A stretch of 45,376 nt of DNA, taken from positions 1-45,376 of IMG/VR virus record IMGVR_UViG_3300013104_000011. One strand, given 5' to 3'. A model generated the notes under the pieces. It ran no database searches and was not told where the DNA came from. It was given only the letters and a program-made list of their open reading frames with translations. Positions 1 through 45,376 of this stretch are shown here, piece by piece; position 1 is the first letter of the stretch, and the number at the start of each line of letters is the position of its first letter. The position numbers and the translations under genes were made by a program. This stretch comes from a virus.

Positions 1-123
1 CCATAGTTCCTACCGAAGTAGACCCCCATCGGCTTACCACTCTTATCTTTCTTAGCTACGATAAAGGCCATAGACCCCTTAGCTTCTATAGTCTTTTGCC
101 ATCCCTCAAGATACAGGGCTACC
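1..123. repeat. Terminal direct repeat, left copy (circular overlap)
   Basis: The first 123 bases are identical to the last 123 bases of the window. The repeat lies inside a coding sequence. Merging the two copies gives one uninterrupted reading frame (glutamine amidotransferase), so the likely meaning is a circular or circularly permuted molecule of about 45,253 bp cut at an arbitrary point. A true short terminal repeat of the packaged DNA is the alternative. Confidence 0.95.
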
Positions 124-536
124 TCATACAGTAGTGCCTCACTGTCATTGAAGGAGCCGTCTCTCTGTTCTGACACGTACTCAACTCCAAACTTTTTATG
201 CTTAGTGCGCAATTCTTCGTCATTATAGATAACTCCGTTGTGGATTAACACGTAGTTATTTTCGAAGAAGTCTTTAGTACTATAGGGATGACATCCCGTC
301 CTCACGTTAAGCGTAGAGGTCGGCAATCGGTGATGGAACATTATCTCATCCGCCTTACTTCGTTTCAGTAGTTTGAGAATCCGCCCCTCTCTAGTATTGT
401 GGGTCAGTCTATTCTCCTGGGGGGCATAAAAGCCGAAGCCGTCAATTCCCCGGCTCCTCTGTGCTTTGTACCTCTTGAAAATAGTCTTGTTTACAGGTCT
501 ACCCGTAAAATCCTTGGAATATATAATTCCGCACAT
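1..536 (-). CDS. Class II glutamine amidotransferase, N-terminal part (continues across the circular junction)
   Basis: The frame opens at ATG 536 behind a strong AAAGGAG site. It encodes an N-terminal nucleophile (Ntn) amidotransferase domain like the one in GlmS. Met-Cys-Gly-Ile-Ile places the catalytic cysteine at position 2 after Met removal. RGIDGFGFY, HHRLPTST, HNGVIYND and a later ND-SE stretch match the glutamine-binding motifs of the family. These enzymes release ammonia from glutamine and pass it to a partner synthase. No sugar-isomerase domain follows. The frame is cut by the window start and resumes at the right end, giving 388 residues with an unknown C-terminal half. It is the last of a run that includes the amidoligase gene, with which phage-type GATases are known to associate. 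Ammonia or amide transfer together with the amidoligase is inferred. Confidence 0.9.
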   Translation of the reverse strand, partial: MCGIIYSKDFTGRPVNKTIFKRYKAQRSRGIDGFGFYAPQENRLTHNTREGRILKLLKRSKADEIMFHHRLPTSTLNVRTGCHPYSTKDFFENNYVLIHNGVIYNDEELRTKHKKFGVEYVSEQRDGSFNDSEALLYEVALYLEGWQKTIEAKGSMAFIVAKKDKSGKPMGVYFGRNY

Positions 537-539
537 AGG

Positions 540-749
540 CTAATCTCCTTTCTGTTGAATTAATTTAACTGTATGTTTAGCCACTATCTCAATCAGTTCA
601 TCAGCAAAAGCCAATTCGCTAAAATCAATACTATAATCGTCATCATCACTGAAGGTGGCTACTTCATTGTCCAGTAACCGATGTAGGGACTTTTTGACTG
701 TCCTTAACAGTATCTCATCCGGGTTGATAGGGGCTATAGCTGTTTTCAC
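540..749 (-). CDS. Small acidic helical protein of unknown function
   Basis: A 69-residue protein starting at GTG 749 behind GAAAGGAC. It has a central DDDD stretch flanked by predicted helices and no recognisable domain. It sits four bases ahead of the glutamine amidotransferase start and 13 bases behind the amidoligase stop, so it is co-transcribed and probably part of the same pathway or complex. A CACGTG palindrome (745-754) overlaps its start codon. I do not recognise a family. Confidence 0.6.
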   Translation of the reverse strand: MKTAIAPINPDEILLRTVKKSLHRLLDNEVATFSDDDDYSIDFSELAFADELIEIVAKHTVKLIQQKGD

Positions 750-754
750 GTGAA
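745..754. promoter_or_regulatory. TTCACGTGAA palindrome (site 1 of a cluster)
   Basis: A perfect 10-bp palindrome with the CACGTG core of bacterial parS sites, overlapping the GTG start of the 69-aa gene. Related sites are at 1339-1348, 3907-3918, 4071-4084 and 4309-4322. The match to full parS is only partial, so an operator for an unknown regulator is equally possible. Confidence 0.4.
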
Positions 755-762
755 GTCCTTTC

Positions 763-2028
763 TTATACTGTTACCATATTATTTATCTCACGACTGGTGT
801 TTCTAGACACAAAATTTTCAAACGTACCCAGTGGCTCTAGATTCTTGGCTCGCAGAAGAGCCATATCCGGGCTTCTTCCGAACTCTGTGATGTTAAAGTC
901 ATACTCTCTCTGTTGTTCTCTGGTTAGAGGTTGACACATTATACTGTGCCAATTATTTATATACATCCCCCACTCCCTGCGTAGACGGGACATTCTGATT
1001 TTTTCATCTGTGGTCAACTCTTTGATGGTATATTTTAACCCTCTATCCTCTTTAAGCTTCTTAAAGCTCTTGTCCTTTGGCTTAATCTCCTTGATAGTAG
1101 AATTAAGTATCCTTAGCTGTTCTGGCGTATCGTAAAATCTAGCTATAGAGCCACTCCCATCACTAAATCCGAATCTCTTGCCTAATTCCTTAACGGTCAG
1201 CCGAGCGTCCTTATAGAACTTTAGCGTCTTAGCAATCGCCTGGATGTACTCGTACACCGCATCCGGCCTATTGTAGCAGGTTTCAAACAGCCTATACTCT
1301 ATACACCTTCCGCCTTGAGTATAGATTGCCGAATACTTTTCACGTGAACTAATCTGAGGCTGTCTGTAGCCAAGTCCTCTCGATTGATGACCGGCACTAG
1401 CGATAAAGAACAATGCTGGTAATAGTTTAGAAACCTCTCTGGTAAAGTTAGCCAGCTTGGCTCTAGGTAGGAGTGTCTGTGCGTTAAAGTCGCCACCCCT
1501 CAGGAGTGTTATATGCATACCTGCTCCGTGTACATCTATAGAACTGTTGCATTCTTCCTCGGCTAAAGCCTTGAACGCCTTAACCCAGTGGTGAAAGTCA
1601 TCTAGGTTATCTACCGGGAAAGTACAGGTAAACTCTGAGTCAACAGAGCCATCCTCATAGAAGTGGGCATGTGTCAACCTCTGACGTACTTCTACCGGGA
1701 CATAGCTTTTCATAAAGCTATCACAGGTTTCTTCGTCGTAGTAACTACCCGATGTCCCCTCTCCTCCACAGTTGCCACAAGTCATTGTTCCTTCTCCTGA
1801 GCAGTGGTTGCACTCGGTCAGAACTGGGTCTCCAGATATTCTGGTGGTATTATCGCTTTCGCTGAAGCCTTCGCCCTCGCACCAGTGACAGTCTACGCTC
1901 CCATGCCCCTCGCACTCTTCGCACCGTCTATCCCCGTCTCTACCAATATCACCCTCAAGTTCAAACTTGATGTGAGTGAAACCGCACCCCTTAATGAACT
2001 CTATCGCCTCTTTAGTAGCAGATGTCAT
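763..2028 (-). CDS. Putative amidoligase (COOH-NH2 ligase, ATP-grasp type) with inserted DnaJ-type zinc finger
   Basis: A 421-residue protein starting at ATG 2028 behind GGGGATAG. The scaffold matches Amidoligase_2-type enzymes, which use ATP to join a carboxylate to an amine. FELEGD (22-27) is the family's early strand, DGS lies at 126-128, a GxHITL strand with His168 and His172 at 167-175, and the characteristic IEYRLFE at 243-249 is followed by a helix. Between the first strand and DGS sit four CxxCxGxG-like units (cysteines 36/39, 47/50, 73/76, 84/87), the pattern of the DnaJ cysteine-rich domain that binds two zinc ions. That fold is not standard in amidoligases and may bind a protein or RNA substrate. 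The gene lies between a metallophosphoesterase and a glutamine amidotransferase gene. The family call rests on motifs read by eye; the substrate is unknown. Confidence 0.75.
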   Translation of the reverse strand: MTSATKEAIEFIKGCGFTHIKFELEGDIGRDGDRRCEECEGHGSVDCHWCEGEGFSESDNTTRISGDPVLTECNHCSGEGTMTCGNCGGEGTSGSYYDEETCDSFMKSYVPVEVRQRLTHAHFYEDGSVDSEFTCTFPVDNLDDFHHWVKAFKALAEEECNSSIDVHGAGMHITLLRGGDFNAQTLLPRAKLANFTREVSKLLPALFFIASAGHQSRGLGYRQPQISSREKYSAIYTQGGRCIEYRLFETCYNRPDAVYEYIQAIAKTLKFYKDARLTVKELGKRFGFSDGSGSIARFYDTPEQLRILNSTIKEIKPKDKSFKKLKEDRGLKYTIKELTTDEKIRMSRLRREWGMYINNWHSIMCQPLTREQQREYDFNITEFGRSPDMALLRAKNLEPLGTFENFVSRNTSREINNMVTV

Positions 2029-2085: not shown

Positions 2086-2613
2086 TTATAGGCTTACTCC
2101 CCCTATTAACTTTTGACTCAACATCACCGGCGATAAGCCGGTCTTTTCTAAAGCTATCTCAATGTGATAGCTGTGGTCGTAGAAAGGCTTAATCTCCTCA
2201 TCCCTGTGTAGGTCTCCATGAGTGTGACCGTGTATATTTATCTCGGTATACGGATAGTGACTGTGGTCTTTAGGTATATGGGAAAACAGAACACGCTTGC
2301 CAAAATACTTACCAATAAACGAACTACAAACGAAGTCCCAACCTCTCTCGTAATACCAGCTATCAGACTTGTTATCGTGATTACCTCTGACTAACACCTT
2401 TCGTCTAGGTGGTGTTGTCTCTGTAAAAGCCCTGTGCCAGTAATCATCAGTACCGATACAGAAGTCACCCAGATGTATCAGAGTGCTATCCTCTGGTAAG
2501 CTTGCCAGCTTGTCAAATATCTGTTGCTCAAACCCTTTCGGTCTGATACCGAACTTAGAGGACATCATCTCGTGTCCGAAGTGTGTATCAGTTATCAGAT
2601 GTATAGGCTTCAT
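2086..2613 (-). CDS. Calcineurin-like metallophosphoesterase
   Basis: A 175-residue protein. ATG 2613 is chosen because GAGGAG lies eight bases upstream; a longer frame from 2628 is open but lacks this. All metal-binding motifs of the family are present: DTH (Asp9, His11), GD (Asp50), GNHD (78-80), SH (His112) and GHTH (129-132). These enzymes hydrolyse phosphomono- or diesters with two metal ions. The start overlaps the upstream nucleotidyltransferase gene by about 26 bases, so the two are translationally coupled. Phages often pair such an enzyme with an RlaP-type nucleotidyltransferase. The substrate here, nucleotide, RNA end or modified metabolite, cannot be read from the sequence. Confidence 0.88.
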   Translation of the reverse strand: MKPIHLITDTHFGHEMMSSKFGIRPKGFEQQIFDKLASLPEDSTLIHLGDFCIGTDDYWHRAFTETTPPRRKVLVRGNHDNKSDSWYYERGWDFVCSSFIGKYFGKRVLFSHIPKDHSHYPYTEINIHGHTHGDLHRDEEIKPFYDHSYHIEIALEKTGLSPVMLSQKLIGGVSL

Positions 2614-3277
2614 AGATGAACTCCTCAATCCAGTCTATATCTGGTTTTAATTTATCGGCTTTGGCATACGCCTCTGTTAAACGACCCTGCATTATCTGAA
2701 ACATCTCTGTCAGTTTAGGTATGTGTCTCTGTATCTCTGCTACAGTCAACGGCTTAATCATCAATAAGAACTCTCTAATATCAGGCTCGTCTATCTGACA
2801 GTGGAATTGTCCTGTCTCTAAAAACTTAGAGGCTTGCCATAGGACTCTGATATAGGCTACCGCAAACTTCGATGTTCGCTCTTGCCCCTTGACTCCTTGA
2901 CTCTCAAACAGATTCATCTTGTTATATTGGTTATGGGCATAGCCCCTAGAAGCCTCAACGAACCTGTCCGTATCTATGAACTTCTGCCAGTTGGCCCTCA
3001 TCTTATCGGCTATCGGCGTTGTCTCTGTTATTTGATTGCTAAAGAACACCTCTAAAATAGTGGCGTTACCTTGAACCGCCAATTTACAGAAGTCGGCCAG
3101 CTCGTAGCTGGTGTTATCTTCATCGCCCTCTATCCAGCTAGTGTTTTGAATCCTCCGAAAAGGTGATAGCACTTCTTTCAACGGGTGGATATGAATACCC
3201 CTATAATCGTAATCTGAATTAGGGTTATCTAAGCCGTGTAATCTTGAACCTACTACAACTTTGGTCAATATCTTCAT
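2588..3277 (-). CDS. RlaP-family nucleotidyltransferase-like protein
   Basis: A 229-residue protein starting at ATG 3277 behind GAGGTG. The N-terminus carries GSRLHGL (10-16) followed by DYD (Asp22, Asp24), the pol-beta nucleotidyltransferase signature in the form seen in predicted RNA-ligase-associated nucleotidyltransferases, common in phages. The rest is helical. Known members are proposed to act on RNA or nucleotides, but few are characterised. It overlaps the phosphoesterase gene downstream and the 72-aa gene upstream, and is downstream of a transcript region containing a tRNA-like fold, so an RNA substrate is a reasonable inference. Confidence 0.8.
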   Translation of the reverse strand: MKILTKVVVGSRLHGLDNPNSDYDYRGIHIHPLKEVLSPFRRIQNTSWIEGDEDNTSYELADFCKLAVQGNATILEVFFSNQITETTPIADKMRANWQKFIDTDRFVEASRGYAHNQYNKMNLFESQGVKGQERTSKFAVAYIRVLWQASKFLETGQFHCQIDEPDIREFLLMIKPLTVAEIQRHIPKLTEMFQIMQGRLTEAYAKADKLKPDIDWIEEFIYEAYTSDN

Positions 3278-3492: not shown

Positions 3493-3626
3493 CTGTTCCC
3501 CCTATCCTTAAGTTTATGGCTACCAGCTCGCCGCCAGCCCCTCAATCCCCGAACATACTCTGTTCTTTCATAAGAGTTCCTGTTTTGCCCCGACAGCTAG
3601 GGAGTTACACCCTTCTGACGGCTCAC

Positions 3627-3713
3627 TGGTGGCGTGACTAGGTACTGCCCCTAGCGAATCACAATGATACCTGTTTTACGGACAGGTCGGCTTCTTTAGC
3701 CGGTTATCACGCC
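3627..3713 (-). tRNA. tRNA-Tyr(GUA)-like element with non-canonical D and T loops
   Basis: On the minus strand an 87-nt segment folds as a type II cloverleaf. The acceptor stem is GGCGTGA paired with TCACGCC, followed by A and an encoded CCA. The anticodon arm is CCTGT-CCGTAAA-ACAGG with anticodon GTA. A TATCATTGTGAT variable arm and a 5-7-5 T-position arm (CTAGG-GGCAGTA-CCTAG) follow. G1-C72, A73, GUA and a long variable arm are the known bacterial TyrRS identity features. However, U33 is C, the T loop lacks TTC and the D loop (TAAAGAA) lacks GG, with four rather than two bases before the D stem. It may be a degenerate tRNA or a mimic rather than a working elongator tRNA. Confidence 0.5.
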
Positions 3714-3720
3714 ATAAAGA

Positions 3721-3803
3721 GTATCAATCAGTTATATTTATAACCATCACACCTCGATTGTACGAGAATCCTACGCTAAGAACGCCGGTGTCACGATTGA
3801 TAC
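3721..3803 (-). ncRNA. Structured RNA unit closed by a 9-bp stem
   Basis: GTATCAATC at one end and GATTGATAC at the other form a perfect 9-bp closing stem around a tRNA-sized interior. Inside are hairpins GTTAT-AAAT-ATAAC and TCTCG-TACAAT-CGAGG and a 5-bp ACACC/GGTGT helix. It starts seven bases from the tRNA-Tyr-like element. It lacks an encoded CCA and a recognisable anticodon arm, so I do not call it a tRNA. Confidence 0.4.
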
Positions 3804-3804
3804 C

Positions 3805-3881
3805 CCTAAACTGCCCACAACCCCATGTCTAGATGACGACATTGCCAGATGAGGCTGTTACCTAGTTATGGACAGTTTAGG
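3805..3881 (-). ncRNA. Structured RNA unit closed by a 9-bp stem
   Basis: CCTAAACTG and CAGTTTAGG form a perfect 9-bp closing stem one base from the previous unit, with an internal ATGTC/GACAT hairpin. The 77-nt length is tRNA-like, but no T arm, D arm or anticodon arm fits. Which strand is functional is inferred from the leftward promoter upstream. Confidence 0.35.
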
Positions 3882-3906
3882 TAGCACGGAGTTAGCAGAG
3901 CAAGCC

Positions 3907-3918
3907 TTTCACGTGAAA
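3907..3918. promoter_or_regulatory. TTTCACGTGAAA palindrome
   Basis: A perfect 12-bp palindrome containing the parS core CACGTG, in the non-coding leader. A second, parS-like variant (GTTTCATGTGAAAC) lies at 4071-4084 and a half-preserved copy at 4309-4322. No ParB is encoded in the window, so any ParB would have to come from the host. Confidence 0.45.
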
Positions 3919-4070
3919 ACTAAGCCCCAGATATATGAAGGCCACAATGATGACAGAAGCCATCAAAGCTACTAAAGCTGTGTTCGCACTCCATTAGCTC
4001 ACTACCTGATTATTTTTTATCGCACTCAGAACTATATCGAGATTGACTTCTTTCGATACTAATTTGCGCT

Positions 4071-4084
4071 GTTTCATGTGAAAC
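4071..4084. promoter_or_regulatory. parS-like site (14 of 16 with one flank)
   Basis: With flanks the minus-strand 16-mer GGTTTCACATGAAACA differs from the common parS sequence TGTTTCACGTGAAACA at two positions. It is the closest of five related sites in the first 4.4 kb. Binding by a host ParB is possible but unproven. Confidence 0.45.
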
Positions 4085-4087
4085 CCC

Positions 4088-4177
4088 CTAGACCACTTGA
4101 TACGTTAAAGCTGTGTCATTGTCAAGACCCAGTTCGCAGTAAATATCGCTAATTGCCCTTGATTCTTCTATTGACAT
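4088..4177 (-). CDS. Possible 29-residue peptide
   Basis: A short frame from ATG 4177, preceded by AAGGGGGCAAG, a fair ribosome site. The product is an acidic helical peptide (MSIEESRAISDIYCELG...). The frame stays open upstream to 4348 with only GTG starts lacking ribosome sites. It lies inside a leader otherwise devoid of genes, so it may be a leader peptide or chance. Confidence 0.3.
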   Translation of the reverse strand: MSIEESRAISDIYCELGLDNDTALTYQVV

Positions 4178-4787
4178 CTTGCCCCCTTTTGACGCACTTA
4201 TAGCTTGCCCTATTAACTCCGTACTATCCCTTGAGTGGGATATTGCCAACACTAGCCGACAATATCCGCCCGGACGCACCTCTCTCTCAATCGCTCTTCG
4301 CTGTAATGTTTCCACGTGAAAATAGCTAGCTACTCGATAGCCTAACACGCAGGTATAGATTGACCACTAGAGGATAATCCTTTCTCCTAATTTTTAAGGT
4401 ACTCTGGACAAGACAAACACTGTGTGTTCGATATTACCCCTAAAGCCGTAACTAGAGCTTTAGAATATCAAGACTAATAAGTACTGTCTGAGCCTCGGCT
4501 ATTGCTACGTCTTACTGATATATAAGTTAGTTACTCCTATACCTGTAGACTAATAGTTTCAGTCATCAAGATGACCTAACAGTTCAACACTTTAGACCTC
4601 TGTTATTAGGAGTAGCAGAACTGCTCCTCTAATATTAGCTAGCCTAAAGAACATCCCTGTAATAGCTGTACTTTTTGAATACTACGCTTTACCTTGCCAG
4701 ATTGTCGTCCCTGTTACACCCTTGTTAACTTCTCCGCTGTCAAAAATATGTGACTCGCTGGATGATGTGGCTGAGTGAACTGTATCC

Positions 4788-4816
4788 ATTGTATCAAACG
4801 CTTACGGCATTGTCAA
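4788..4816 (-). promoter_or_regulatory. Sigma70-type promoter, leftward operon
   Basis: TTGACA (4811-4816) and TACAAT (4788-4793) on the minus strand, separated by 17 bases. Transcription would begin near 4781 and run into the structured leader and then the nucleotidyltransferase-phosphoesterase-amidoligase-amidotransferase genes. Unlike the leaderless promoters elsewhere, it is about 1.3 kb from the first robust gene. Confidence 0.8.
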
Positions 4817-4959
4817 CTAGATTTTTCAGAGCTTTGATGTTTTAATATCGTTGACCCCGGTTGACCTGATTGATTTAACCTGTTGCGCCTGATTGTTAAG
4901 GATAATCACCACTATTAATGATGATACAAGTTATTATATAGTAATGCTTATGGCTTGTA

Positions 4960-4975
4960 TGTGATATTCATCACA
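4960..4975. promoter_or_regulatory. CRP/FNR-like palindrome upstream of small terminase
   Basis: TGTGATATTCATCACA fits the TGTGA-N6-TCACA pattern of CRP-family sites. Its centre is about 85 bases upstream of the predicted start of the terminase transcript. A near-identical copy with the same preceding GTA and following AA is at 6048-6063. The binding protein is unknown; none is encoded in the window that I recognise. Confidence 0.5.
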
Positions 4976-5017
4976 AACTTGAAAAGAAATTGATTATATT
5001 GTTTGGCTATCATAAAG

Positions 5018-5046
5018 TTGACATCCTAACAAATAACTGGGATAAT
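5018..5046 (+). promoter_or_regulatory. Sigma70-type promoter giving a leaderless small-terminase mRNA
   Basis: TTGACA (5018-5023), 17-base spacer, GATAAT (5041-5046), then seven bases to ATG 5054. The expected transcription start coincides with the start codon, and there is no Shine-Dalgarno sequence between. Confidence 0.8.
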
Positions 5047-5053
5047 TAATTAC

Positions 5054-31998: not shown

Positions 31999-32832
31999 AT
32001 GGCACACTTAGAATTTATTGATGTTTCACAGTGGCAGGGAATTATAAATTGGCAAGCGGTTAAAAGTGCTGGCATAGTTGGAGCTGTGGTGAAGATTTCC
32101 GGTGGCGACAGCGGACTTTATTACGATTCACAGGCTTCGGCTAATTACTATGGTGCCAAAAACGCCGGACTGGCAGTAGGTGGTTATCACTTTGCCGGAG
32201 GGGGCAATGCGATTGATGAAGCTAATTATTTCGTAGCTGGTATGAAACCGTTCGCCGAGAATGATGTATTCGTCCTAGACTGGGAAGTCCAACACGCCGA
32301 CCCAGTAGGATGGTGTGACGCCTTCACTCGCAGAGTCCACGACTTAACAGGAGTTTGGCCTATAGTTTATATGAATGGAGCCACCCGCAACGCTTATGAC
32401 TGGACGAGAGTTGCGAAGAACTGTGGTTTCTGGATTGCTTGGTGGGGCCAAGACCCAGAACAGGATTTGCCAGTTTCAGGAGTTTATATAATGCACCAGT
32501 ACACGGATGTAGGTTCAGTCCCCGGTGTTTCCGGGCACGTGGACAGGGATGCCTGGTACTTTGATATTGATACTTGGAATAAATATGGCTGGCATTCACC
32601 AGCTCCCGCCCCTGCTCCAACTCCAACCCCAGTCCCCACACCCGAACCAACCCCGGCACCAGAGCCTCAGCCTACTCCGGAGCCTACCCCTGAACCAATC
32701 CCTACACCAGAACCTAAGCCTGAGCCACAGCCAACCCCAACTCCCGGATTAGATTGGAAACACTTAGTAGCAACTTTGATTGCCGCAATAGCGGCTATAG
32801 TAGCTGCTGTGGGTGTATGGATTCACAGTTAA
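31999..32832 (+). CDS. GH25 muramidase endolysin with proline-rich linker and C-terminal membrane anchor
   Basis: 277 residues. A GH25 lysozyme domain (1-198) shows FIDVSQWQG with Asp8, GGYHF, and FVLDWE with the catalytic pair Asp94 and Glu96. GH25 enzymes cut between N-acetylmuramic acid and N-acetylglucosamine. A Pro/Thr/Glu linker (about 200-250) follows, then a hydrophobic span LVATLIAAIAAIVAAVGVW ending WIHS. There is no wall-binding repeat. A C-terminal membrane anchor is unusual for an endolysin and suggests a virion- or membrane-tethered enzyme or timed release. Confidence 0.92.
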   Translation: MAHLEFIDVSQWQGIINWQAVKSAGIVGAVVKISGGDSGLYYDSQASANYYGAKNAGLAVGGYHFAGGGNAIDEANYFVAGMKPFAENDVFVLDWEVQHADPVGWCDAFTRRVHDLTGVWPIVYMNGATRNAYDWTRVAKNCGFWIAWWGQDPEQDLPVSGVYIMHQYTDVGSVPGVSGHVDRDAWYFDIDTWNKYGWHSPAPAPAPTPTPVPTPEPTPAPEPQPTPEPTPEPIPTPEPKPEPQPTPTPGLDWKHLVATLIAAIAAIVAAVGVWIHS

Positions 32833-33485
32833 GACCTCGGCTTGACCGAAAAGTCTCGTTTGATGAGAGGTCACGCCAGTTTCCCATACGTGCCGTCCTT
32901 CCATCTAAAACCCCACGTTCGTACTCCTGGCGTACAAATGCCTGGCTAGACCAGGGTTCGGAAGGTGCTTGCGTGGGGTTTGGGTGGTCTCATTTTCTAG
33001 CCGGCCGCCCTAAGGAAGAGCCTAATATCACTAATTCCTTTGCTCAGAAGCTTTATAACGATGCCAAAAAGGTTGATGAGTGGCCCGGAGAAGATTATGA
33101 CGGCACTTCGGTGTTAGCTGGAGCCAAGACCACTCTCTCTGACAGCTACATCAAAGAGTACCGCTGGTCGTTCAGCTTTGATGACCTTATATTAACACTC
33201 GGACATGTGTCCCCGGTTGTTCTGGGCATAGATTGGTATGAAGATATGTTTAATCCAGACCCCAAGACTGGTATCATCACGGCTACCGGGTCTTTAGCTG
33301 GTGGTCATTGTATCCTAGCTAACGGGGTTAATATTAAAAAGAAGCTTGTCCGACTTCATAACTCCTGGGGAAAGGACTGGGGTAAGAATGGGGAGTGCTA
33401 CATCTCCTTTGATGACCTACAGACACTCCTCAGTCAGGATGGAGAGGGTTGCGTACCACTAAATAAAGTGCTAAAATCTTCATAG
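32817..33485 (+). CDS. Papain-like (C1) cysteine protease
   Basis: 222 residues from ATG 32817, which overlaps the muramidase end; an upstream in-frame ATG at 32754 would lie inside the muramidase anchor. The papain catalytic set is visible: Gln47 and Cys52 in DQGSEGACVGFG, His164 in GGHCILANG and Asn182 in NSWGKDWG. No signal peptide. Placed between muramidase and holin genes, it may cleave cell-surface proteins or cell-wall peptides, mature another phage protein, or act on host targets. It lacks a propeptide inhibitor domain. Confidence 0.9.
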   Translation: MDSQLRPRLDRKVSFDERSRQFPIRAVLPSKTPRSYSWRTNAWLDQGSEGACVGFGWSHFLAGRPKEEPNITNSFAQKLYNDAKKVDEWPGEDYDGTSVLAGAKTTLSDSYIKEYRWSFSFDDLILTLGHVSPVVLGIDWYEDMFNPDPKTGIITATGSLAGGHCILANGVNIKKKLVRLHNSWGKDWGKNGECYISFDDLQTLLSQDGEGCVPLNKVLKSS

Positions 33486-34844: not shown

Positions 34845-35048
34845 CTACGGTACCTTTAGAACCTCTCCGCATTTAAGACATCTTTTCTCAATTCTGTCAA
34901 GGTCTGGGCGTATCTTCTGGCCTCCGATTGATTCAGGCTTGGCAAAAAACTCTGTATGGCTGAAACATGGCTTACTCATCCTCACTCTGTGGAACTTCTG
35001 TCCGACGAAAGGGCTTATGTGAAACCCTAGAATTATTCGCTTACCCAT
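34845..35048 (-). CDS. Small cysteine/histidine-containing protein
   Basis: 67 residues, ATG overlapping the glycosyltransferase stop (TAATG). A CLKCGEVLKVP element at the C-terminus could be half of a zinc site; His and Cys residues near 33-36 (PCFSH) may supply the rest. No family recognised. Confidence 0.55.
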   Translation of the reverse strand: MGKRIILGFHISPFVGQKFHRVRMSKPCFSHTEFFAKPESIGGQKIRPDLDRIEKRCLKCGEVLKVP

Positions 35049-35530
35049 TAGTGCCTCACGTGGTAGGTAATATACGGCGAGAAGTGTATCTTCTTACCGG
35101 CTTCTACCATTTCTTTAACTTGTATCCAGTCCTCGTTCCTGACAGATTTGAATGGGAACTGTTTGGCTACCTCTGTTTTGACAGAGTAGGCTATCCCGAT
35201 ATTCCCCCACTCAACTGTCGGCCACGCCGGAATAATAGTGCCTCTTAGCCAATACTGCCTAAAGTGGATTATGTCGGCCTCGGGGTGAGCTTTTATTTCC
35301 TCCTGTAGCCGTTTTACATAGTCTTCCGTCACGGTATCATCGTCATCTAAGAATGATACCCAGGGAGTAGTAACCCAATTAATGAGCCGGTTACGGGTTT
35401 CCGATTCTCCGACTCTGGGTAGGTCATCATATCCTACAAGGTACTGGGCGTCCTTAATAGAATTGATTGCTCTTTTGAGCGTATCCCTCCTTATGGATGG
35501 GATTATGAAGGTTGTTAAATCAAGATTCAT
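35048..35530 (-). CDS. Family 2-type glycosyltransferase
   Basis: 160 residues from ATG 35530 behind AAGGAG. TTFIIPSIRRDTLKRAINSI is the nucleotide-sugar-binding start of a GT-A fold, and SFLDDDDTV (60-67) is the DxD-type metal motif. A C-terminal SVRNEDWIQVKEM corresponds to the acceptor/catalytic ED motif. It is short but complete for a minimal GT2. It could glycosylate phage DNA, a virion protein or host surface glycans; no modified-base pathway is seen nearby, so a protein or glycan target is as likely. Confidence 0.82.
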   Translation of the reverse strand: MNLDLTTFIIPSIRRDTLKRAINSIKDAQYLVGYDDLPRVGESETRNRLINWVTTPWVSFLDDDDTVTEDYVKRLQEEIKAHPEADIIHFRQYWLRGTIIPAWPTVEWGNIGIAYSVKTEVAKQFPFKSVRNEDWIQVKEMVEAGKKIHFSPYITYHVRH

Positions 35531-44107: not shown

Positions 44108-44599
44108 CTAAAATGGCACATCTCTTGTTTCTAGTTCTTGGTCTCTACTTAACTGTGGTATGGGGAAGTTACTGTCTCTGGCCTCATACTCTGGTGGCTC
44201 GTCACTTTCAACCAGAACCTTAGTGAACGGAGTGTTTGTATCAAGTGCCTCATATAGTTTACCGAATACCGGCATAGCTCCCGACCTCTTGAATGGCTCC
44301 TGCCACAGCTTTACCCAGTGACTTCTTAAATTATATTCACCTACTATCACAGGATAAGACCCCTCTCCTGCCTTTAGGACTATCTGCCAATTCCTGTTCT
44401 GCTGTGCCAGACTTCTTTGATAGTTCCTCCTGAACTCTCCTCTCACCGGGGTCTTTTGCAGGAAAAACTCCCATCTATCCCCCTCATCCGTTAGAAGGGG
44501 GGAGGAGTAGTTTAACGCCGGTAGATTCAAGTCCTTTAGAGGAAGAATTATCGAGGTGTAAATGTACGTCTCTAGTTCCCTGAAGCTCTTGATTTTCAC
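44108..44599 (-). CDS. Unknown protein downstream of glutamine amidotransferase
   Basis: 163 residues from GTG 44599 behind GGAGAG. FRELETYIYTSIILPLKDLNLPALNYSSPLLTDEG and NWQIVLKAGEGSYPVIVGEYNLRSHWVKLWQEPF suggest one alpha/beta domain; the C-terminal 30 residues are disordered. Directly after the amidotransferase stop (about 20 bases), so likely in the same pathway. No family recognised. Confidence 0.65.
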   Translation of the reverse strand: MKIKSFRELETYIYTSIILPLKDLNLPALNYSSPLLTDEGDRWEFFLQKTPVRGEFRRNYQRSLAQQNRNWQIVLKAGEGSYPVIVGEYNLRSHWVKLWQEPFKRSGAMPVFGKLYEALDTNTPFTKVLVESDEPPEYEARDSNFPIPQLSRDQELETRDVPF

Positions 44600-44622: not shown

Positions 44623-45376
44623 TTAATGGATTGGGGTAATCGCTCTAGCTTTCCCCGACTCGTTAACCGATACGTTGGGGATGTGAAAAAACTCCTGTTC
44701 GCGTTGAACAGAAGCCTCTCTTTCTAGCTCCTGTATTGCCAGCCCTATATAGTATATCTTGTCGGGAATAGACATTAATTCATCCACATCATCGTCCATG
44801 ATTAACCCGCTGTGCGTCAGATTTTCCAACACACCCTCACGCTTTTTAAGCTGTTCAATCTCGTACTCTCCAGACACAACGGCATCAAAGGGATTCTCAT
44901 AGTTATCATAGAGTAGCTGCTCTTTAATTCTCCTAACCCTATTACTCTCTATCCTGTGCATGTCCCACTTGCGTAAGATTTTCTCTACATCCCTATCACT
45001 TCTGGCACCCTTTAAGCCGGAGAACTCGTTATCACTCTCCCACTCCTCCCTAGACTGGAAACCAAACCCCATACCACCGTAGTAATTGGTGGAGTATTCG
45101 TAAGTCCCTCCTGTGGGGAAAGTACAAGCCTCTGAGGTTATTTTATGCGTCCGGTAGTCATAGAAGTGCATCTTATGAGGCTCTACGTCCTCACCTTTGC
45201 CCTCTGAGGCAAGTGTTAGGCTGAAGGCTGTTTCCTTGATTTTCAATGGATTACCATAGTTCCTACCGAAGTAGACCCCCATCGGCTTACCACTCTTATC
45301 TTTCTTAGCTACGATAAAGGCCATAGACCCCTTAGCTTCTATAGTCTTTTGCCATCCCTCAAGATACAGGGCTACC
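44623..45376 (-). CDS. Class II glutamine amidotransferase, C-terminal part (starts at 536 across the junction)
   Basis: Continuation of the frame starting at ATG 536: in circular coordinates the gene runs from 536 through position 1 into this segment and stops at 44623, 388 codons in all. This part holds the end of the Ntn domain (AFIVAKKDKSGKPMGVYFGRNYGNP) and an unassigned C-terminal region with helical, charged segments (KILRKWDMHRIESNRVRRIK). Reading it as a separate 233-aa gene from ATG 45324 would be an artefact of the window edge. Confidence 0.9.
   Translation of the reverse strand, partial: VALYLEGWQKTIEAKGSMAFIVAKKDKSGKPMGVYFGRNYGNPLKIKETAFSLTLASEGKGEDVEPHKMHFYDYRTHKITSEACTFPTGGTYEYSTNYYGGMGFGFQSREEWESDNEFSGLKGARSDRDVEKILRKWDMHRIESNRVRRIKEQLLYDNYENPFDAVVSGEYEIEQLKKREGVLENLTHSGLIMDDDVDELMSIPDKIYYIGLAIQELEREASVQREQEFFHIPNVSVNESGKARAITPIH
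45254..45376. repeat. Terminal direct repeat, right copy (circular overlap)
   Basis: Identical to bases 1-123. See the left copy; the unique genome length would be 45,253 bp. Confidence 0.95.

Follow-up and report, generated by a model that had tools for sequence, protein, structure and literature searches.

A previously unrecognised branch of the phage amidoligase and glutamine amidotransferase cassette at the circular junction of a virus record

Genes for a putative amidoligase (AL) and for part of a glutamine amidotransferase (GATase) lie at the start of the window, the whole 45,376-bp virus record analysed here, and the remainder of the GATase lies at its far end. This arrangement raises the question of whether the two ends belong to one operon and, if so, whether that operon is a new kind of system or a form of a known one. 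The window ends carry an exact 123-bp direct repeat, and removal of one copy followed by joining of the ends yields a single minus-strand open reading frame (ORF) of 388 aa that starts with MCGIIYSK (Table 1). GATase homology is collinear through the junction, with 78 of 137 positions identical before the repeat, 17 of 41 inside it, and 14 of 58 after it when the window is compared with L073. Since the alignment with GATase homologues of other phages keeps its collinear order through the junction, the end-joining is judged to be biologically right. This collinearity, an argument from sequence, also serves as independent support for the circularity of the window, and the repeat is best read as a circular overlap or permutation point and not as a physical end between genes. 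The repeat, the intact joined ORF, and the collinear homologues together bear out the circular junction proposed in the initial annotation, whose gene order and sizes (388, 69, 163, and 180 aa plus the amidoligase) are correct according to the ORF list and the end-joining. Shine-Dalgarno-like stretches occur upstream of the operon genes, the GATase included.

Table 1. Features of the operon and of the window ends.
Feature	Position	Strand	Basis
Joined GATase ORF, 388 aa	536 to 1, then 45253 to 44623	-	End-joining
GATase N-terminal part, Ntn domain with Cys2, residues 1-178; runs across the junction to 45253	1..536	-	Joined ORF, GATase_6
GATase C-terminal part, residues 179-388; last 123 bp duplicate 1-123	44623..45376	-	Joined ORF, collinear homology
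Terminal direct repeat, copy of 45254-45376 (circular overlap)	1..123	.	Exact match
69-aa protein, between AL and GATase	540..749	-	ORF list
AL, predicted divergent GS-fold amidoligase, 421 aa	763..2028	-	AF2 model, Foldseek, hhalign
DnaJ-type CxxCxGxG zinc-finger module of AL (putative), residues about 36-92	1753..1923	-	PF00684, motif count, model
X1, 163 aa, directly downstream of GATase	44108..44599	-	Homologues in related phages
X2, 180 aa	43553..44095	-	Homologous domain in related phages

The joined ORF matches the Pfam GATase_6 model (E=8.9e-9, above the Pfam cut-off) as well as the glmS, asparagine synthase (asn_synth), and purF models of NCBIfam. Cys2, R29, R70, H83, and N100-G101 are invariant in all 42 members of the GATase subfamily, and D131 is retained in 40 of them. 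Since these residues are invariant or nearly so among the homologues, the window GATase is predicted to possess the full class II (Ntn) catalytic set. With the GATase_6 match, this substantiates the earlier description of the 388-aa protein as an Ntn amidotransferase. The same class II catalytic residues are common to the glutaminase domains of GlmS, AsnB, and PurF. Unlike those enzymes, the window GATase is a stand-alone protein without a synthase domain of its own, and its C-terminal half is unassigned to any domain.

For the window AL, no amidoligase model (PF12224 included) was matched in Pfam, PHROGs, or NCBIfam, where mainly DnaJ-type zinc-finger models were hit, and at the Pfam gathering score PF12224 (Amidoligase_2) matched neither the window AL nor five relatives. 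No close relatives turned up when the AL and GATase sequences were searched by themselves. Relatives were gathered by a scan for the GATase motif HHRxPTST, written as a degenerate DNA pattern, and AL homologues lay beside nine of the GATases. Nine ALs were aligned for motif and profile comparison. In this alignment, the invariant residues include E23 and E25 (ExE), D126 and E132 (DGSVD..E), H172 (AGMHI), I235 (KYsAI), and E244 and R246 (EYR). The AL family thus has all of the ordered motifs of GS-like amidoligases, namely ExE, DxS..E, G.H, KYxxI, and E(F/Y)R. The second His of the HxH is absent from the family, its place being taken by Ser, Thr, or Ala (H172-I-T in the window; HIS, HIA, HLS, or HMA in relatives). 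Comparison of the AL alignment by hhalign gave a probability of 80% with a podovirus Amidoligase_2 set and of 91% with a merged set, and the motifs from DGS onward (DGS..E, AGMHI, KYsAI, and (I/L)E(Y/F)R) fell in register with Amidoligase_2. Against the GATase-linked classical ALs alone (ALB), only Cys-rich stretches of the AL profile were aligned, and the profile evidence is taken from the podovirus and merged sets, not from this comparison.

An AlphaFold (AF2) model of AL reached a pLDDT of 81. All 50 matches listed for this model by Foldseek in the PDB are glutamine synthetases or gamma-glutamylmethylamide synthetase; the best has E=6.6e-6 and prob 1.0, with a TM of only about 0.4 and a large rmsd. 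In BFVD, the top matches are phage models named 'Amidoligase enzyme'. AL shares the predicted fold and the ExE, His, and E-x-R type motifs with glutamine synthetase and gamma-glutamylmethylamide synthetase. It differs from them in sequence, with identity of about 10-15%, and in that it would work beside a separate glutaminase. Because the predicted fold and the motifs agree, the amidoligase label given in the initial annotation is accepted, though it is absent from the family libraries. The lack of a PF12224 match and the replaced second His mark the family as divergent, and AL is placed, on sequence and model grounds, within the GS-like amidoligase superfamily as a divergent family. An alcohol-dehydrogenase-like gene, the single tblastn match when the zinc-free AL was searched against phages, was rejected as a relative and regarded as a chance hit.

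The window AL carries four CxxCxGxG repeats after the ExE strand, inserted before the DGSVD..E motif. PF00684 is matched over its full profile (1-65/65) with E=6.8e-5, below the Pfam curated cut-off, and the AL model has short strands at residues 44-83. The number of CxxC pairs per family member ranges from 0 to 8. Since three members (L074, L134, and L135) are without it, the putative zinc module is common but dispensable, and not essential to AL chemistry. Another Cys-rich module is found in classical amidoligases (L086, L069, L075, L100, L063, and L089), which have about six N-terminal CxxC pairs with regular, LIM-like spacing. This N-terminal series, borne by classical ALs paired with the same GATase subfamily, differs in spacing from the window module. 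The attachment of Cys-rich modules to ALs at two different positions suggests a recurring docking role for these putative zinc modules.

Scans with an alignment of AL only recovered 17 relatives, of which 15 are viral loci and the other 2 are contigs of bacterial MAGs. A GATase lies just downstream of AL in all 17, and because nine of these relatives were unseen in the GATase-motif scan, the pairing amounts to an independent test. On the fragment L096, a 145-aa gene lies between AL and GATase. For almost every remaining GATase of the subfamily, the gene immediately upstream is a classical Amidoligase_2, and the gap mostly measures about -13 to +30 bp. Pairwise distances of AL and GATase are correlated both among 18 divergent pairs (Mantel r=0.92) and among 24 classical pairs (r=0.81), shared phage ancestry contributing to each value. 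The GATases that partner the divergent AL form one clade (support 99/97), except those of L140 and L141. The contigs with these two AL-GATase pairs were binned into Nitrosomonas and KSB1 MAGs. Two AL-GATase pairs are present in one phage in L063 (9745-13925, in tandem) and likewise on the contig of L072 and L077, which suggests duplication and diversification.

Homologues of X1 directly follow the GATase in seven phages (L126, L129, L130, L131, L133, L134, and L135), with blastp E-values of 1.2e-5 for L133 and 4.8e-4 for L126; the AF2 model of X1 has a pLDDT of only 57. A domain homologous to X2 lies downstream in six phages (L126, L128, L129, L130, L131, and L133), in several of them within a longer protein. 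Besides the window, five phages have the full order AL–GATase–X1–X2, namely L126, L129, L130, L131, and L133, with L129-L131 being close relatives of each other. Because X1 and X2 keep their order in all of these phages, AL–GATase–X1–X2 is regarded, from comparison of sequences, as a real conserved module. No homologue of the 69-aa protein was found in related operons, and PADLOC gave no match to known defence systems for AL, GATase, X1, or X2. The operon postulated earlier, with the 163- and 180-aa genes as members, is thereby upheld. Far from never co-occurring, AL and GATase are linked in the window and in every one of the 17 relatives from the AL-only scans.

The cassette is wider in many relatives. 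Of 14 related virus records, 10 encode a γ-glutamyl cyclotransferase (GGCT, PF06094), whose gene often lies immediately upstream of AL, and 5 encode a RimK-type ATP-grasp. Both are absent from 20 comparison phage records, which are relatives of the nucleotidyltransferase or terminase of the window (0/20 each; Fisher p 8e-6 for GGCT and 0.007 for ATP-grasp). Neither gene was found in the window itself by Pfam search, and for this reason the product of the window operon may be simpler than that of its relatives.

Cassettes of amidoligase and GATase are well known in podoviruses (PMC3890496, PMC5498523, PMC10580990). The set of AL, GATase, ATP-grasp, and GGCT occurs in phiEco32-, LUZ24-, and RIO-1-like podoviruses, and modification of the host wall and exclusion of other phages have been predicted as its role (PMC3890496, PMC5498523, PMC10580990). 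PMC5498523 and PMC10580990 credit the original proposal to Iyer et al. 2009. Direct inspection covered the cassettes of UFV-P2, CW02, SU7, O4, Vibrio phage 275E43-1, KZY1, a Rhizobium phage, and Asterion. Those of phiEco32, LUZ24, tf, UFV-P2, PA11, CW02, and RIO-1/PSA-HP1 share the amidoligase and class II GATase with the window, and the ATP-grasp and GGCT with relatives of the window branch. Of the features of a phiEco32-type cassette, the window has the AL and GATase linkage and, unlike the podovirus cassettes, lacks the ATP-grasp and GGCT. The window AL further differs from the podovirus amidoligases in being unmatched by PF12224, in its inserted DnaJ-type putative zinc module, and in its position just upstream of the GATase. 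The window branch has X1 and X2, whereas the podovirus cassettes have a gene of roughly 190 aa and a COOH-NH2 ligase instead. Profile comparison gave no support to either X1 or X2 being the roughly 190-aa gene. A COOH-NH2-ligase-like gene is also located close to the classical AL-GATase pair in L060, L062, L066, L087, L088, L090, L092, and L099. The description of the operon as undescribed holds only in part: cassettes of this kind are well known, and the novelty lies in the branch, in the zinc module inserted into its AL, and in the pair of accessory genes. The window operon thus represents a branch, not recognised before, of a phage cassette of known kind and is not a new kind of system. Phage amidoligases are widespread, with 316 phage records matched by one UFV-P2 query, and no characterised product for them was found in the literature consulted.

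The operon is likely to specify a glutamine-dependent amide ligase made up of two components, along with two accessory proteins. This reading builds on genes, a fold, motifs, a pairing, and a conserved gene order that were established by computation, and the enzyme chemistry would follow from the protein families. The N-terminal cysteine of the GATase (Cys2 after removal of Met) would split glutamine into glutamate and ammonia. AL would use ATP to convert a carboxylate, perhaps that of a wall precursor, to an acyl phosphate and then capture the ammonia passed to it, or another amine, to form an amide or gamma-glutamyl-type bond. The probable role of X1, of X2, and of the zinc module of AL is to hold the substrate or to bring the partners together. 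For the relatives, further processing of the product by the RimK-type ATP-grasp peptide ligases and the gamma-glutamyl cyclotransferase is probable, and the presence of these enzymes suggests a product that is gamma-glutamyl or peptide-like, or else a precursor of the host wall peptide. The purpose may be a wall modification that limits superinfection. A functional analogy, and only that, is offered by GatD and MurT, a class I-type amidotransferase and a Mur-ligase-fold protein, respectively, which are unrelated to GATase and AL. Their amidation of peptidoglycan may be likened to the AL/GATase reaction in being a two-protein, glutamine-fed carboxylate amidation (PMC3267633).

Several targets may be considered for such a ligase. 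It is possible, if short of probable, that the host peptidoglycan stem peptide is modified by amidation of D-Glu or mDAP or by gamma-glutamyl capping, blocking superinfecting phages or tuning lysis as for phiEco32-like cassettes. This would accord with the GGCT and ATP-grasp carried by relatives of the window operon and with the wall role already proposed for podovirus AL/GATase/ATP-grasp/GGCT cassettes (PMC5498523, PMC10580990). However, GATase and AL suit soluble metabolites equally well, and direct evidence for a peptidoglycan target was found neither here nor in the literature consulted. The product could, more tentatively, be a soluble gamma-glutamyl or amide metabolite that serves phage or host in nitrogen recycling or auxiliary metabolism. 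The GGCT family acts on soluble gamma-glutamyl amines, a known function that fits a metabolite of this type. In keeping with such a product, host growth with nitrate or ammonium is reported to be promoted by a phage that carries genes for an amidoligase, a GATase, a glutathione-synthase-like protein, and a GGCT, the tie between the growth effect and these genes being speculation by the authors (PMC10945688). Against it, the window is without GGCT and ATP-grasp, and the putative zinc modules give a hint that the docked partner is larger than a metabolite.

In a rather unlikely view, a previously unrecognised family of zinc-finger-bearing amidoligases, together with a GATase and two small proteins dedicated to it, would place amides or glutamyl groups onto a macromolecule docked by the zinc module, as a covalent modification system of the phage. 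It is judged improbable that the target is a macromolecule, either nucleic acid or a protein of host or phage, which the zinc module would recruit, with AL amidating Glu/Asp side chains or adding glutamyl units so that host protein activity is altered. This reading draws on the two different types of Cys-rich module at two AL positions in this GATase family and on the ability of RimK-like ATP-grasp enzymes to modify proteins. A similar protein-modification proposal has been made for another ATP-grasp clade (PMC4431377). The absence of the zinc module from some members of the AL family argues against a macromolecular target.

The initial annotation had also drawn the neighbouring nucleotidyltransferase and phosphoesterase into the pathway. 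The former is RlaP by Pfam (E=4.3e-21), and its gene overlaps that of the calcineurin-like phosphoesterase (2086-3277, minus strand). RlaP has been described as an RNA-repair enzyme (PMC7824862). A polynucleotide kinase is encoded near 17 of 19 viral relatives of the nucleotidyltransferase and a nucleic-acid ligase near some, all three genes being together in MW202692. RlaP and the phosphoesterase thus resemble a module for RNA end repair, with the phosphoesterase perhaps standing in for the kinase. A single pathway for all of these genes is highly improbable: the genes are adjacent and co-directional, but RlaP occurs in none of the 14 AL-family virus records, the kinase accompanies its relatives, and a search without a positive control gave no AL match in 18 virus records and one phage record carrying nucleotidyltransferase or terminase relatives. 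The phosphoesterase is less firmly excluded than the nucleotidyltransferase, since one homologue lies near a classical AL-GATase pair in L075.

Elsewhere in the window, a short glycosyltransferase family 2 domain protein (E=4e-9) is encoded at 35048-35530 on the minus strand. At 31999-33485 on the plus strand, the gene for a GH25 muramidase precedes one for a papain-like (C1) peptidase-like protein, and the two form a possible lysis or wall-degrading pair. About 1.5 kb at 3493-5053 contains few ORFs (one of 86 aa) and gave no tRNA or Rfam match.

As a branch of the phage cassette, the window operon adds a predicted amidoligase family that Pfam, PHROGs, and NCBIfam fail to recognise. Its consistent AL–GATase core and two dedicated small genes make it a small system to express and assay.
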